Positions 36,270-43,696 of a DNA stretch of 64,000 bases are shown piece by piece (positions within the stretch are counted from its first letter, which is position 1; every line of letters begins with the position of its first letter). The DNA lies in contig JAUWCL010000010.1 in NCBI GenBank assembly GCA_030609325.1, positions 1 to 64,000 of the forward strand, read 5' to 3'. A program made the position numbers and the translations under genes. This DNA comes from Candidatus Krumholzibacteriota bacterium (GTDB taxonomy: Bacteria; Krumholzibacteriota; Krumholzibacteriia; Krumholzibacteriales; Krumholzibacteriaceae). Under the pieces are notes generated by a model. That model saw only the letters and a list, made by a program, of their open reading frames with translations. It was not told the DNA's origin and did no database searches.

Positions 36270-36302
36270 GAGAATAAGTTGACTCTTAAAGCAAGAGAGG
36301 AT

Positions 36303-36770
36303 ATGGAATCTAAAAAACTCGCTTCACTGTTCCAGGAAGACCTCTGCATCTTTAGTCTGCGATCCCGGAAAAAGACCTCCGTCCTGCAGGAAATGGTCAG
36401 GCATCTCAAGGCATCCGGGAAGATCGCCGACGAACATTTCATCCTCGAGATGCTCAAAAATCGCGAAAGCCTCGGATCGACGGGCCTCGGCCTCGGCGTA
36501 GCCTTTCCACACGGTAGATCTATAGCGATACCGGATCTCACCGTGTTGTTCGCACGTTCTCCGTCGGGAATCGATTTCGAAGCTCTCGACAGCGAACCCA
36601 CGAAGGTCTTCTTCCTCATCCTCGCCCCTTCCGAAAAGGGCGCGGAGACCTATCTCGCCCTCCTCAGCAGGCTGACGGCCCTCGTCCAGCAGCCCGAGAC
36701 CCTCGAAAAACTTTACGAGGTAAAGAATTTCGAGTCCCTCCAGGCAGTTCTCGGGAGTGACAACGGATGA
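36303..36770 (+). CDS. PTS EIIA (PtsN/EIIA-Ntr-like) protein
   Basis: The 155-residue protein starts at the ATG behind GAGAGG. The fold and motifs of the fructose/nitrogen EIIA family are present: LASLFQEDLCIFSLRSRKK, VLQEMVRHLKASGKI, RESLGSTGLGLGVAFPHGRS with the phosphorylatable His70, and VFFLILAPSEKGAETYLALL. EIIA-Ntr is phosphorylated by NPr/EI-Ntr and regulates potassium uptake, sigma-54 functions and kinases in several bacteria. No PTS EI or HPr is seen here. Overlaps the next gene by 4 bp. Confidence 0.88.
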   Translation: MESKKLASLFQEDLCIFSLRSRKKTSVLQEMVRHLKASGKIADEHFILEMLKNRESLGSTGLGLGVAFPHGRSIAIPDLTVLFARSPSGIDFEALDSEPTKVFFLILAPSEKGAETYLALLSRLTALVQQPETLEKLYEVKNFESLQAVLGSDNG

Positions 36771-37111
36771 GAGAGGAATTCAGGCTCCTCGTCGCCCTCC
36801 AGGATCTCGACATCATGATCAAGGAAGTCGAGGAAAAGAAGACTTCCGATCAACTGAAGAACATGGGATTCCAGCTCGACGGGCTCGAGGAGCTCCAGAA
36901 GGCAAGGGCGACGCTCGCCGGGAAGATCCCCCCAGCTCTCAGAAACCGTTACGAGAAGCTCGCCGGGCGTTACAGGATGGCCATCATCCCCGTCACCGAC
37001 GACAAGTGCCTCGGCTGTTTCGTCAAACTCCCCACCTCGTTCTTCTCGTCGGCCTACAGCAGCGAGCTGATCACCTGCGAGAACTGCGGCCGGCTCCTCT
37101 TCATACCGTAA
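36767..37111 (+). CDS. C4-type zinc-ribbon protein, HP0958/CT398-like C-terminus
   Basis: The 114-residue protein has an N-terminal helical part (FRLLVALQDLDIMIKEVEEK) and a C-terminal zinc ribbon with C81-x2-C84 and C104-x2-C107 (KCLGCFVKLP, ITCENCGRLLFIP). This ribbon resembles the zf-RING_7 domain of HP0958 and CT398, proteins known to bind RpoN, but the long coiled coil of those proteins is mostly missing here. It is translationally coupled to the PtsN-like gene and lies 100 bp upstream of a sigma-54 activator, which supports a link to sigma-54 (inference). Confidence 0.75.
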   Translation: MREEFRLLVALQDLDIMIKEVEEKKTSDQLKNMGFQLDGLEELQKARATLAGKIPPALRNRYEKLAGRYRMAIIPVTDDKCLGCFVKLPTSFFSSAYSSELITCENCGRLLFIP

Positions 37112-37211: not shown

Positions 37212-40200
37212 ATGAAAAACGACCTCGGATTCACCTCGCGCTATGCGATCAAGAAGGCGCTCGGCGCCTATCCCCCATGGCAGGGATTCGGTGTCACCGA
37301 TTCCCTCAGCGGAAAGGACTACCTCCTCTTCTCGCTGATCATCCCCGCCGAGACATCGATATCGACAGACGATCTGCTTATGAGGGATTATCTCTTCTCC
37401 GACTCGGCCGGCGACAGCATCAGCGCCCTCTCGATCCAGGAGAACGGAGGCGGTGTATTCTTCCTTCTTCCCTGGCAGGAGCTCGTACCCGTAACAAAGA
37501 TGCTTCCGTCCCTCAAGCCCGAAGAGAGTCTGGAGCTTACGCGCTCCCTGACCTCCACGTTTCTCGACTGCATATCGACTGGGCGGTTCTTTCACAACCT
37601 CTCGATCGAATCCGTCGTAATGCAGGGAAGCTCAGCCGGGATCCTCCCGACCGCCTATCTGGTCCCGGAAGCAGTGCTCGACAGGCTCGGCGTTTCGGGC
37701 GGGGCCGACAACGGCAAGAACCTCTTCGACGACCTCAACGCTTTCGGCGAATTGCTTGCTCTCTTCTGCAGGTATTTTCCCGTGGAACACTCCGCCGCAT
37801 GCGCGGAAACGGCCGAGAGGCTGCGGGCCATCGGGCCCGAGACCGGTGACAACCTCTTCTCCGTCATCGAGAAGCTCGGCGAGCTGTCGGGAAGGAAATC
37901 CGGAATTCCCGTCGTACTGGCCGGAAGAAAACCGCTGCTGAAGAACCATTCAGCGGCGATGAACCTCGTGAGACAGGCGGCGTTCAGATCGCGCGAGGAC
38001 GGAAAGCAGATGGTGATCGTCTCGGGTCGGGAGGGCGCGGGCAAGACATCCCTGCTCAAGGAGATGGCAAAAAAGCTGACCGGGGAATGGGGATTCACGG
38101 GCGACGGTATAGCCGGGGACCAGAGCGTCTTCAGTGATTTCCGGGACCGTGAGGAGAGTTCCGAGGCCGAGTTCACAATCCATGACGACCATCACCAGGA
38201 TCCGGTCCTCAGCGGCCTCATCGTCGAACGTCTCTCCCACAACCTGGAGAAGAGCAGGCTCGCCGTCATCGGTCTGAGCGACGACGCGCCGGCCTGGTTC
38301 TCCGACGCGGTCCGTTCGGAGGGCCGCGAAAAAGGCTTCCATATAACCGATATCGAGATACCCGACCCGGATTTCGCCCGGAAGAGCGGATCGGTCCTGA
38401 CGCTTCTCCCGAAAGACCGGCGGAGGGCGGTGAAGAAGATGTTCGGCCGCAGGGACAGCTTTGCCGTCATGGAGCTCAAGACGAGGCTGGCCGCTGAAAA
38501 CGCAGGCGCGGACAGGACGGCCGGCAACGTCATAGATTTTCTCGACGAGGAGGAAAGATCGGTCCTTTCATTCATCGCCGTTTTCCGGTTCGACGTTCCC
38601 CTCTCCATCCTAAAGGAAATCTTCTCCACCGAGGAGGGCCGCTTCTACAGGATCCTGCACCGCCTGGTCACACTGGACATCATCCGGAAGAGGGCAGGCA
38701 GATCGTGCTTCGCCGACGGCGGCCTCTGCACGCTCTTCAGCATCAGCGGCAAGAGTATCGCTTCCATGATCGAGAAATCAATCGATCCCGAACGGCTGGT
38801 GCAGCTTCACAGAAACATCGCCCAGATACTCAAGGAGGCGCAGGAAGCGCCCGCCGCGTATATATTCTACCACCTCGTGCGGTCGGGCGACATGCAGGAA
38901 GCCGCATTCAAGGGACTGAGGGTCTTCCAGCTGCTCCTCACCCGGAAGCGCCTCAACGCGATAAACTCATTTAACGACGGATACATGAGCCTCGGTCTCG
39001 ACCGTCACCTCCCGTTAGAGATGAGACTTAACCTGCTCCTCGAACTGGGGAACTACTACGCGAACATCGGCAGGATCGAGAAGGCCGAGGAGTTCTTCAG
39101 GAATTGCCGCGAGGAGACGAGCACGAGCGACAGGTGGCAAAACCACAGGGAGCTCGCAGTCGAGGCGATCAGGAAGGAATGCGAGATACTCGAGAAGCGC
39201 GGCGAGTTCATAGTCGCCGAGGAGCTGCTCAAGAAGGCTCTCGAGACGCACGGCGAGCACATAATGGCTCAGGAGAGAGCGAAGATCTACAACGATCTCG
39301 CCTGGGTATACTACCGCCTCGGCAAGTTCGACAAGTCGTGGGAAAACTGCCTCCTCGTCCACAAGCTGCTCGATAATAAGCAGCACCCGATGGAGCTGGC
39401 CCAGTCGTACAACCTCATGGGCGCGATCAACTGGAACAGGAGCAAGTACGACGAGGCCCTTCTCTGCCACAAGAAATGTCTCGCGCTGCGCGAGGACTGC
39501 AATGACGAGCTCGGGGTCGCGGCGAGCTTCAACAACCTCGGCCTCGTCTACCGCTCGATGGGAAGGATCAAGGAGGCGCTCGAGAGTTTCACGAAGAGCA
39601 TGCGCATCAAGCAGCGCAACAACAACCGCCCCGGGCTCGCGGCGGTCCATCTCAACATAGCCCTCGCCTGCCTCGACACCGAGGAACTCGAGAAGGCCGA
39701 GTCGAACTGCACGACGGCTGTCAAACTGGCCGAGGACCTGGGCAATCAGCAGCTGCTCGCCGAGATCTACGGGACCCTCGGCGAGATCCGCCTCAGGAAG
39801 GGCGATCATACCGAGGCGCGGAACCATTATTTCAGGGCGCTTCACATATGCCAGAAGACACGCTCGCTGCGTGAGAAAGCCGTTGTGTTGAGGAGGCTCG
39901 GCGAGCTCGGTCTCGTCGAGGGAAAGATCGACGAGACGAAGGATCTCCTGGGAGAGGCTAGAGAGCTCAACAAGCAGATCGGATCGCGCCTCGAGACGGC
40001 GCTGCTCGACCTGCTCGAGGGAAGGGTGCAGTTGTCCGAGGGCAAGCGCGAGCACGGGCGGCGCATCCTCGAGGAGACGAGTTTCGAGCTGTCGCTGCTC
40101 GGCAGGAAGGGAACGGCCGCCTCCGTCGCATCGGAGATCGGCGAGCTATACCTCGAGGAGGGGAACGAACCTCTCGCACGCGAGTACCTTCTCAGGGCGA

Positions 40201-41846
40201 TCTCCCTCTTCGGCGAATCGGAGAAACTCCCCAGCGGGGTCTCCCATCTCCAGAAACATCTCGAGCAGAGAACTACCCTCGACCTCGAAAAGATCCACTC
40301 CGATTCGGCAAGGTTCAGGGCGCTCTGCCGCCTCATCTCCCTGATACGAACCATCCACGATCCCGACAGGCTGCACGAGACGATCACCGAAATGGCGATG
40401 AAAGTGACAAGCATGGAGCGGGCGGCGCTCATCCTCCAGAGCGACGGCCAGGACACGTACAGGATCCTCGCGTCGATCGGCGACTTCGACTCGGAGTCGA
40501 TACTTACCGATCAGAACATCATAGCGATACTGAACATCTCCAGGCAGCTCGGCTACCCGCTCGACATTTCGAGGACGAGGATCCCGTCCGGCAAGGTCCA
40601 GGAGGATTTCCTTGCCGATCATCCGGGGATCATCTGCACACCCCTCTGGATCCACGAGGAAGTGACGGGTTATCTCTACCTCGACGCAAGCCGTGAAGGG
40701 GCCGGGACAACCGACGAGGACCATACCTTCCTCGTCGCGTTCAGCCAGCAGGTCTCCCTGGGCCTGGAGAAGATGCTCCTTTCCGACCGGCTCAGACAGA
40801 AGGAAAAACCGTCCGGAGAGAAGGTATCGGTGATCGACGGCCCGAGCAACAGGGTCACGTTCCAGGATATCATCGGGAAGTCGGCGGCAATAAGAAAGAT
40901 CTACGACCTCATAGACGGCATCAAGAACATAGACACGACGGTCCTGCTCACCGGCCCGAACGGGTCAGGAAAGGACCTCGTCGCGAAGACGATCCACTAC
41001 ACCGGCCCGAGGAAAGACAAGCCATTCCACACACTGAACTGCCCGGCGCTCCCCGACCAGCTGATCGAGAGCGAGCTGTTCGGCCACGAGAAGGGCTCCT
41101 TCACCGGCGCGTACAAGCAGAACGTCGGCCATTTCGAGTCGGCCAGCGACGGCACTATCTTCCTCAACGAGATCGGCGACCTCCCGCTGAAGCTGCAGCC
41201 GAAGCTCCTGCGGGTACTCGAGGACATGAGATTCTTCCGTGTCGGCGGGACGAGGGAGATCAAGACGAACGCGAGGGTCATCTGCGCAACGAACAAGGAC
41301 CTGATGAAGCTCGTCAAGGAAGGCAGGTTCCGCGAGGACCTCTATTACAGGATCAACATATTCCCGATCAGGGTACCGGGGCTGGTCGAGCGCAGGGATG
41401 ACATCAAGCTCCTCTGCAACCATTTCTTGACCATGTACTGCCGCCTGTACAATACTGCCACGAAGCGCATCTCGCCCGAGGCGATGGTCTGCCTGACCGA
41501 GTACGACTGGCCGGGCAACGTCAGGGAGCTGGAAAACACGATCAACCGGCTCATGATCATCTCGAAGAAGGACACGATCCTTCCCGAGGACCTGCCGGTC
41601 AATATCGTCAGGCACAGGGAGAACGTCGAGACCAGGTCGCTCAGCACTCTCGAGGAAATGATCGAATCGATCCTCGAAATGGTCGAGTTCTCCGATAGCG
41701 ACCCGATACTGCCGAGGGTGAAGCGGACGCTGATAAGCAAGGTAGTGGAAAAAACAGGAGACAAGACGAAGGCCGCGCAGATACTCGGTATCTCGAAGCC
41801 TACTCTCTACAGCCACCTCAGGAGCCATGAGCGGAAACGCCGCTAA
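37212..41846 (+). CDS. Sigma-54 activator with kinase-like, NTPase, TPR and GAF domains (1544 aa)
   Basis: Residues 1-235 resemble a protein kinase but lack HRD and DFG (FFHNLSIESVVMQG stands where the catalytic loop would be). An NTPase follows with Walker A SGREGAGKTSLL (about 270), then TPRs (about 590-1010), a GAF domain (about 1040-1190), and an AAA+ sigma-54 activator domain (from about 1219): Walker A TGPNGSGKD, loop G1295-SFTGA (the usual motif is GAFTGA), Walker B FLNEIGD, and R-finger region. The C-terminus is a Fis-type helix-turn-helix (TKAAQILGISKPTLYSHLRS). The layout recalls PknK/MalT-like regulators. It very likely drives the sigma-54 promoters in this window, though this is not proven by sequence. 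Confidence 0.92.
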   Translation: MKNDLGFTSRYAIKKALGAYPPWQGFGVTDSLSGKDYLLFSLIIPAETSISTDDLLMRDYLFSDSAGDSISALSIQENGGGVFFLLPWQELVPVTKMLPSLKPEESLELTRSLTSTFLDCISTGRFFHNLSIESVVMQGSSAGILPTAYLVPEAVLDRLGVSGGADNGKNLFDDLNAFGELLALFCRYFPVEHSAACAETAERLRAIGPETGDNLFSVIEKLGELSGRKSGIPVVLAGRKPLLKNHSAAMNLVRQAAFRSREDGKQMVIVSGREGAGKTSLLKEMAKKLTGEWGFTGDGIAGDQSVFSDFRDREESSEAEFTIHDDHHQDPVLSGLIVERLSHNLEKSRLAVIGLSDDAPAWFSDAVRSEGREKGFHITDIEIPDPDFARKSGSVLTLLPKDRRRAVKKMFGRRDSFAVMELKTRLAAENAGADRTAGNVIDFLDEEERSVLSFIAVFRFDVPLSILKEIFSTEEGRFYRILHRLVTLDIIRKRAGRSCFADGGLCTLFSISGKSIASMIEKSIDPERLVQLHRNIAQILKEAQEAPAAYIFYHLVRSGDMQEAAFKGLRVFQLLLTRKRLNAINSFNDGYMSLGLDRHLPLEMRLNLLLELGNYYANIGRIEKAEEFFRNCREETSTSDRWQNHRELAVEAIRKECEILEKRGEFIVAEELLKKALETHGEHIMAQERAKIYNDLAWVYYRLGKFDKSWENCLLVHKLLDNKQHPMELAQSYNLMGAINWNRSKYDEALLCHKKCLALREDCNDELGVAASFNNLGLVYRSMGRIKEALESFTKSMRIKQRNNNRPGLAAVHLNIALACLDTEELEKAESNCTTAVKLAEDLGNQQLLAEIYGTLGEIRLRKGDHTEARNHYFRALHICQKTRSLREKAVVLRRLGELGLVEGKIDETKDLLGEARELNKQIGSRLETALLDLLEGRVQLSEGKREHGRRILEETSFELSLLGRKGTAASVASEIGELYLEEGNEPLAREYLLRAISLFGESEKLPSGVSHLQKHLEQRTTLDLEKIHSDSARFRALCRLISLIRTIHDPDRLHETITEMAMKVTSMERAALILQSDGQDTYRILASIGDFDSESILTDQNIIAILNISRQLGYPLDISRTRIPSGKVQEDFLADHPGIICTPLWIHEEVTGYLYLDASREGAGTTDEDHTFLVAFSQQVSLGLEKMLLSDRLRQKEKPSGEKVSVIDGPSNRVTFQDIIGKSAAIRKIYDLIDGIKNIDTTVLLTGPNGSGKDLVAKTIHYTGPRKDKPFHTLNCPALPDQLIESELFGHEKGSFTGAYKQNVGHFESASDGTIFLNEIGDLPLKLQPKLLRVLEDMRFFRVGGTREIKTNARVICATNKDLMKLVKEGRFREDLYYRINIFPIRVPGLVERRDDIKLLCNHFLTMYCRLYNTATKRISPEAMVCLTEYDWPGNVRELENTINRLMIISKKDTILPEDLPVNIVRHRENVETRSLSTLEEMIESILEMVEFSDSDPILPRVKRTLISKVVEKTGDKTKAAQILGISKPTLYSHLRSHERKRR

Positions 41847-42861
41847 ACAGCTGTCCCCCTTCATCAGGATCATGATCGCGATCTTCCTCCTTCTGCTCGC
41901 GGTCTGGATCGTGCTGAAGATCTATATAGCCCGCACGGAACCTTCCGAGCCGCCTGTCGACGGGACGAAGGTGAGCGTCTTCGTCACCGCCGGGCTCAAG
42001 GGGTACCGCGAACCCTGCGGCTGAAAGAAGGACACCTTTTCCGGGATGGCCAGGTGGGCTTCCCTGATAAACAAGCGAAGGACGCAGCATCCGGCGATAC
42101 TCCTCGACGCGGGCGGCTTCTGCAATCCCGCACAGGGGAGCAAGGCCGCATTCAACCTGGATTACTTCTTCGAGGGGATGCGTATGATCGGGTACGCCGC
42201 CGCCGGCATCGGGGCCGACGAGATCCGGTTCGGGCGCAAGCGTCTCCTCGAGAGAGTCGACCGTGCGGGATTCGAACTTCTTTCGGCCAACATATACGAC
42301 AAACGCGGCGGGGCGATGCTCGGCACGAAATACACGGTGATAAAGGCCGGCGGGAAAAAGACCCTGATCGGCACGAAGGGCGGTGTGAAGATAGGCGTCT
42401 TCTCCGTCGCCCTTCCGCTCTTCATACACGAGATAGACCCGAATATCCCGTTGTACTACGACGTCCTCGATCCGAGGATCGCCGCACTCGAGGCAGTATC
42501 GGTCCTGAAGGGAAAAGGCTGCGACCTGATCGTGGCTCTGAGCTACCAGGGCTGGTCGAAGAGCCTCGCCCTCGCTGAAAGCATTGACGGAATCGACATA
42601 GTGATCAACGGGCGGCGCGAGCACAACCAGCCCACAGGGGAAAAAGTCGGGCGCACAACGGTCGTCGACACGGGGATCAGGAGGATATCGCTCACCGAGG
42701 TGTTCGTGGAGTGGACAGGCGGCAGCCCCCGGGTCAGGGTACGCGAGTCGGGGCCCGAGGCGAAAAGAATGAAGGGCAGAGATGATCTTGTCGAGCTCGA
42801 GAAGAAATACGAGCTCGAGCTCAAAGCCCGCGGCATCAAGGATGCCCGGGAGGGCAGCTGA
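41827..42861 (+). CDS. Predicted selenoprotein: membrane-anchored 5'-nucleotidase-like protein, UGA = Sec66
   Basis: A 65-codon frame ends in TGA at 42022 and the same frame continues for another 279 codons with full similarity to 5'-nucleotidase/UshA-like proteins. The junction reads TAGLKGYREPCG-U-KKDTFSGMARW, where related proteins have the conserved PCGC; the UGA thus replaces the second Cys. A SECIS-like hairpin follows directly. The protein has an N-terminal transmembrane helix (IMIAIFLLLLAVWIVL) and an extracytoplasmic domain with LLDAGGFCNP, GADEIRFGRK, LIVALSYQGWSK and GIDIVINGRREHNQ. The usual metal ligands (DxH, GNH, GHxH) are mostly replaced, so hydrolase activity is doubtful; a redox role of Cys64/Sec66 is possible. 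The first 20 bp overlap the activator gene. Confidence 0.75.
42022..42062 (+). promoter_or_regulatory. UGA(Sec) codon and candidate bacterial SECIS hairpin
   Basis: After the UGA: GAAG (42027-30) pairs CTTC (42059-62), CACCT (42033-37) pairs AGGTG (42052-56), CC (42041-42) pairs GG (42048-49), leaving a GGGAT apical loop. The loop starts 18 nt after the UGA and has G at its first positions, inside the known limits for bSECIS elements (16-37 nt). Confidence 0.65.
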
Positions 42862-42940
42862 CCGCGGAATCGGCAGGCATCGGCCCGATTTCATGAAACG
42901 AGCTCCATACGATGAGCTCCACAGAGAGAGGTGTCACGTA

Positions 42941-43696
42941 ATGAGACTTGACAAGGTGACCGGTTTTCTCGAGGAGACCCTGAGTCTTGAGTTGTTTTCA
43001 GGAGACCCGTCCATGAACGGGCTGCAGGTCGAGGCGTCGGGTGAAGTCAGGAAAGTCGCACTGGCAGTGGATGCCTGCAGGGAATCGATCAGCCGTGCGG
43101 GCCGCCGGGACGCCGACCTGCTGATCGTCCATCATGGCCTCTTCTGGAGCGGCTGGGTGCCGATCACGGGGATCATGGCCGTGCGGGTGAAGGCCCTCCT
43201 CGACAGGAATGTCTCCCTCTACGCCACCCACCTCCCGCTCGACTGCCACCCGGAGATCGGAAACAACGCCCGGATAGCGAGCGTACTCGGAATCGGGGAG
43301 ACGGAACGCTTCGGAAAGTACGCAGGCATCAATATAGGGCTCTGCGGCAAGCTGCCCAGACCGCTGAAGATCGAGGGACTGCGCCGGAAACTAGCGGGCA
43401 TCCTCGACTCGCCCGTCCAGACCTTTACCTTCGGACCGGCTATAGTAAGGAAGCTTGGAATCGTCTCGGGCGGCGGGGCTTCCCTCACCCAGGCAGCCGC
43501 CGACGCGGGCTGCGATGCGCTCGTGACGGGCGAGACGTCGCACTCGTCATATCATATTGCGAGGGAGAACGGGATCAGCCTGATATTCGCCGGCCACTAC
43601 GCCTCGGAGACATTCGGCGTCAAGGCGCTCGGCGAGCTCATGAAGGAGAAGCTGGGCCTGGAGACATTCTTCATCGACCTGCCGACAGGGCTCTAG
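42941..43696 (+). CDS. Nif3-like dinuclear metal centre protein
   Basis: The 251-residue protein shows the Nif3/DUF34 pattern: GDPSMNGLQVEASGEVRKVA, VDACRESISRA, LLIVHHGLFWSGW, YATHLPLDCHPEIGNNARIA, and the C-terminal half GCDALVTGETSHSSYHIARE, IFAGHYASETFGVKALGELM. The His/Asp/Glu residues bind two metals. The protein is often called GTP cyclohydrolase 1 type 2, but that function is not well founded; a role in metabolite repair or metal handling is discussed. Short form without the PII-like insert. Overlaps the convergent tricorn gene by 4 bp. Confidence 0.9.
   Translation: MRLDKVTGFLEETLSLELFSGDPSMNGLQVEASGEVRKVALAVDACRESISRAGRRDADLLIVHHGLFWSGWVPITGIMAVRVKALLDRNVSLYATHLPLDCHPEIGNNARIASVLGIGETERFGKYAGINIGLCGKLPRPLKIEGLRRKLAGILDSPVQTFTFGPAIVRKLGIVSGGGASLTQAAADAGCDALVTGETSHSSYHIARENGISLIFAGHYASETFGVKALGELMKEKLGLETFFIDLPTGL

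Follow-up and report, generated by a model that had tools for sequence, protein, structure and literature searches.

The frame 41827–42858 of the window (the whole stretch of DNA that was analysed, 64,000 nucleotides long) has a UGA at 42022–42024 as its sole interruption, in the context YREPCG-UGA-KKDTFSGMARW, and is open thereafter up to the UGA at 42859. One may ask if this internal UGA ends a protein or is read as selenocysteine (Sec) within one. An earlier note, made from the letters alone, had predicted the latter, a new selenoprotein of 5′-nucleotidase-like type residing in the membrane, which gene finders would report as two fragments. The standard ORF listing does split the gene, into 41827–42024 (65 aa) and 42046–42861 (271 aa), and the parts on either side of the UGA match the same families, namely NCBIfam NF041198, SoxB and 5′-nucleotidases, with the NF041198 score rising from 70.9 to 96.5 bits once the two halves are joined. 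The homology was thus found to continue past a single in-frame UGA, as had been proposed. That the two parts form a single predicted selenoprotein, a new and differently built branch of a catalogued selenoprotein kind, is well supported by the comparisons below (Table 1). To the whole explanation, i.e., Sec decoding of an anchored, extracytoplasmic redox protein with a vestigial phosphoesterase fold, the translation of which would be coupled to that of a regulator, we assign a probability of about 0.82.

Table 1. Features of the predicted selenoprotein locus, in coordinates of the window.
Feature	Coordinates	Strand	Remarks
PTS_EIIA_2 protein and C4 zinc-ribbon protein	36279..37111	+	Upstream of the regulator
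TPR/GAF/sigma-54-activator regulator	37212..41846	+	Upstream; 1544 aa; adjacent in 19/19 related loci
Predicted selenoprotein gene	41827..42861	+	344 residues; Sec is residue 66, CGU is 64–66; UGA stop 42859–42861
N-terminal membrane anchor	41857..41928	+	Residues 11–34; topology predicted
Putative Sec-coding UGA	42022..42024	+	TGA in 17/17 orthologues including the window gene
Degraded UshA/SoxB-like metallophosphoesterase domain	42025..42750	+	After the CGU motif
Candidate bacterial SECIS hairpin	42043..42064	+	GGG / bulge / GGCC-AGGUG-GGCU / CCC; loop 42052–42056
NIF3-like gene	42941..43696	+	Downstream; found adjacent in 16/19 related loci

The presence of selA, selB, selC and selD in the genome had been suggested as a check of the prediction, and the genome, a Krumholzibacteriota MAG of 2.63 Mb (95% complete), contains all of them over cut-off: tRNA-Sec with the anticodon TCA (UCA; 71.5 bits, gathering 47), SelB (351 bits, cut-off 242), SelA (500 bits, cut-off 268) and SelD (366 bits, cut-off 125). 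The SelD gene (L017 1501–2427, G000:C1) has one in-frame UGA of its own, in CSG-U, so the genome holds at least one further predicted selenoprotein. In a literature search, no paper linking Krumholzibacteriota with selenocysteine was found.

The internal UGA was followed through 17 orthologues (one from this genome, two from the same genus and fourteen from the same family), which share 37–100% identity. At the end of the gene they use different stops (9 TGA, 5 TAG and 3 TAA), as is the behaviour of a true stop, whereas the internal UGA is never TAA or TAG. The motif around it is PC[G/S/T]U, i.e., PCxU, in all 17, with PCGU in the window protein, and in alignment A4 (14 rows) residues Y60, R61, E62, P63, C64 and U66 are invariant, together with GMARWA downstream of the UGA. 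Cysteine does stand at the UGA place in relatives, as the earlier note had expected, but in SCGC rather than PCGC, and in paralogues rather than orthologues: 11 distinct Cys paralogues align SCGC to PCG-UGA, one of them in the same genome (L054; G000:C24), and no Cys orthologue was found within the short clade that includes the window protein. Two of the Cys-form paralogues, L085 and L095 from two f2 genomes, have one in-frame TAG each in the matched stretch.

A stem-loop 18 nt after the UGA, with bacterial SECIS geometry and a loop starting with G, had also been described. The stem does start about 18 nt downstream (42043) with such geometry, but G is in the second place of the apical loop, AGGUG, which is 5 nt long, lies 27 nt after the UGA and is of NGGNG type. 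The published bSECIS criteria ask for a loop of 3–9 nt with G in the first two places, 16–37 nt from the UGA, and for a stem of at least 4 bp with MFE of −7.5 or lower (PMC13188914); the window hairpin has 4 bp in the upper and 3–4 bp in the lower stem and −12.3 kcal/mol, and lies within these limits. Its energy alone is unexceptional for the GC content (z −0.06 to −0.98); its significance comes from comparative evidence and not from folding energy. The consensus in orthologues is GGG..GGCC-[A/C]GGUG-GGCU.CCC, and of the 45 distinct UGA-bearing sequences in the wider family 44 retain all four upper pairs, as against none of the 11 distinct Cys paralogues. Among the 45 UGA sequences pair 27–39 occurs as GU, GC, UA, CG and UG, and pair 30–36 as CG and UA. 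The changes at both pairs exceed those in shuffles, a control that ignores relatedness, and therefore the contrast with Cys paralogues and that with slid pairings, which are 27–70% paired vs. 99% for the hairpin register, constitute the better argument. The compensatory changes appear once the wider UGA family is added, there being no two-sided pair changes within the short clade alone. In the 17 orthologues synonymous variation reaches its gene-wide minimum at six-codon windows starting +4 to +9 after the UGA (0.41–0.47 of expectation vs. 0.88 overall). Codon +9 (Ala) is GCC in 16 of them and codon +10 (Arg) is AGG or CGG only in all 17, whereas all six Arg codons occur in the pooled genes. 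Sequence comparison thus indicates that SelB and tRNA-Sec decode the UGA as Sec, aided by this hairpin.

Could the UGA be a plain stop, with the downstream part starting independently at 42046 or being a decayed remnant? The two ORFs given by gene finders speak for it, as does the ATG at 42046, which is present in 16 of 17 orthologues and preceded, ~13 nt upstream, by the purine-rich AAGAAGGA. However, L033 has GCG instead of this ATG, and the paralogues mostly have Leu, Val or Ile at the aligned position, within GGxARR and in the same open frame. The constancy of the internal UGA beside varying terminal stops, the invariance of YREPC before it as well as of the segment after it, and the covariation of the hairpin also argue for translation through the codon. 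The earlier note would have given up its prediction for close relatives with a plain stop and their own start at 42046; what they have is a conserved UGA and, in L033, no Met, and we regard a plain stop as very improbable. Still less credible is a reading of the UGA as Trp or Gly through a genome-wide code change or leaky read-through: nothing beyond the open frame speaks for it, and against it stand the full Sec machinery including tRNA-Sec(UCA), the use of UGA as terminal stop in nine of the 17 orthologues and the Cys of paralogues at the UGA place.

With Sec insertion preferred, the next question concerns the kind of protein that would be made. The description as a 5′-nucleotidase-like membrane protein agrees with the N-terminal anchor and with the profile matches to 5′-nucleotidases and SoxB. 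A single N-terminal helix would tether the product to the membrane, and the positive charges found at the N-terminus in most orthologues suggest that the phosphoesterase-like domain is outside the cytoplasm, its most likely location. The AlphaFold model is poor (pLDDT 39) as the alignment was not deep, the input being three near-identical rows (window protein, L051 and L052); helix 11–37 is among its few fairly confident stretches. An antisense ORF (41818–42894, minus strand, 358 codons) spans the gene and is open throughout in only 4 of 17 orthologues; since stops interrupt it in most of them, it is rejected as a gene and probably results from GC-rich codon use. PADLOC gave no defence-system match.

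The usual metal motifs of the phosphoesterase superfamily are DxH, GD, GNH, SH and GHxH. The window protein, the domain of which aligns with structures of 5′-nucleotidase, YfkN and SoxB over ~200 residues, has TAGL, AGG, GADE, SY and GRRE in these places. DxH and GNH are lost in all 17 orthologues, and GD, SH and GH survive in part of them, the window protein having lost more than most. The claim that the metal ligands are lost therefore holds as far as degradation is concerned, but in most orthologues the loss is only partial; the accompanying claim of a kept redox pair stands, with C64 and U66 unvarying across orthologues. The UshA/SoxB-type fold, as recognized by sequence profiles, would carry Cys-Gly-Sec just past its first strand. 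Unvarying C64 and U66 beside eroded metal motifs favour a redox role over hydrolysis, without proving it, and thiol/selenol redox chemistry by the Cys-Sec pair appears to be the somewhat likelier function; counted against it are the absence of a partner thioredoxin and of a fused cytochrome. Alternatively, Sec may be inserted into a metal-dependent phosphoesterase or thiosulfohydrolase-like hydrolase, in which Cys and Sec either add to the metal ligands or form a site that carries sulfur covalently. The profiles of SoxB and 5′-nucleotidases match such an enzyme, and the His of SH is kept in most orthologues and the Asp of GDF in many, which makes residual hydrolysis or metal binding possible. 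With DxH and GNH gone throughout and the window protein also devoid of the SH, GD and GH residues, a true hydrolase is considered unlikely.

How new is this redox candidate? An UshA-like (COG0737) CxU selenoprotein was reported from marine metagenomes (GOS 2008; PMC2398784), and a 2026 review lists UshA-like CxU with NF041198, and NF049981 as a second family (PMC13188914). Since the kind has been reported since 2008 and curated as these two families, the novelty asserted by the earlier note is kept at the subfamily level only. The phosphoesterase region of the window protein is homologous to the NF041198 UshA-like (seleno)protein (E 1.4e-27), with which it shares the P-C-G-U motif, the spacing to GG.ARR/GMARW, and the position and hairpin of the SECIS, although 96.5 bits, over profile positions 4–278 of 519, is below the cut-off of 275. 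Compared with that family, the window clade has no C-terminal tetrahaem cytochrome domain (0 CxxCH), has an N-terminal membrane anchor, carries Trp for the second Arg of ARR, shows more eroded metal motifs, and possesses conserved gene neighbours of its own. NF049981 (UshA-like (seleno)protein family 2) is a distant homologue in the N-terminal part (E 1e-4; 21.8 bits, below the cut-off of 140) and is listed as CxxU, not CxU. The same ~200-residue region can be aligned with SoxB thiosulfohydrolase (TIGR04486; PDB 4uwq, 2wdc) and with the 5′-nucleotidases UshA and YfkN (PDB 1ush, 3gve), from which the window protein differs in its eroded metal-ligand motifs and in the CGU segment, predicted to follow strand 1; it is also too short for the C-terminal domain of 5′-nucleotidases. 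In the literature searched, no functional study of the UshA-like CxU kind was found, and a clearly separate branch is now added to it.

In the unrooted tree, which covers the short clade, long UGA forms and Cys forms, the short clade (20 sequences including three that lost the motif) is one side of a branch with 100/99 support. Its members are built of the N-terminal anchor and ~340 aa without CxxCH; the long UGA forms have PCGU and nearly all carry four C-terminal CxxCH (exceptions L040/L083), several of them exceeding the NF041198 cut-off; the Cys forms constitute the third group. In the order-level relatives L038, L039 and L043 the gene has diverged strongly; it still stands between the regulator and NIF3 but the CxU segment is gone, which implies that the redox chemistry is dispensable to the role of the locus there. 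UGA forms, Cys paralogues and the motif-lost sister group make up a natural set for asking about the role of Cys-Sec on a phosphoesterase scaffold, and the split-gene annotation error would recur across genomes of the same lineage. The genome also encodes a second predicted UshA-like selenoprotein (L053 482–2251; G000:C1:32050-33309 region), with a tetrahaem c-type cytochrome domain, in which A-G-U replaces C-G-U, the partner Cys being lost unlike in published CxU proteins.

The conserved regulator and NIF3 neighbourhood provides a handle on the possible role. The stop of the regulator gene overlaps the start of the selenoprotein gene by 20 nt, and the redox protein would be translated in step with the sigma-54 activator, to which it could, speculatively, report the extracytoplasmic redox state; equally speculative is that it acts on a substrate under the control of the regulator. 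The further-reaching idea of an uncatalogued subfamily, in which a hydrolase fold turned into a membrane-anchored, extracytoplasmic redox sensor that is co-translated with and signals to the TPR/GAF/sigma-54 activator as a selenium-based signalling module, is put forward as doubtful. Further upstream, the PTS_EIIA_2/zinc-ribbon order was also observed in three family members (G008, G009 and G013).
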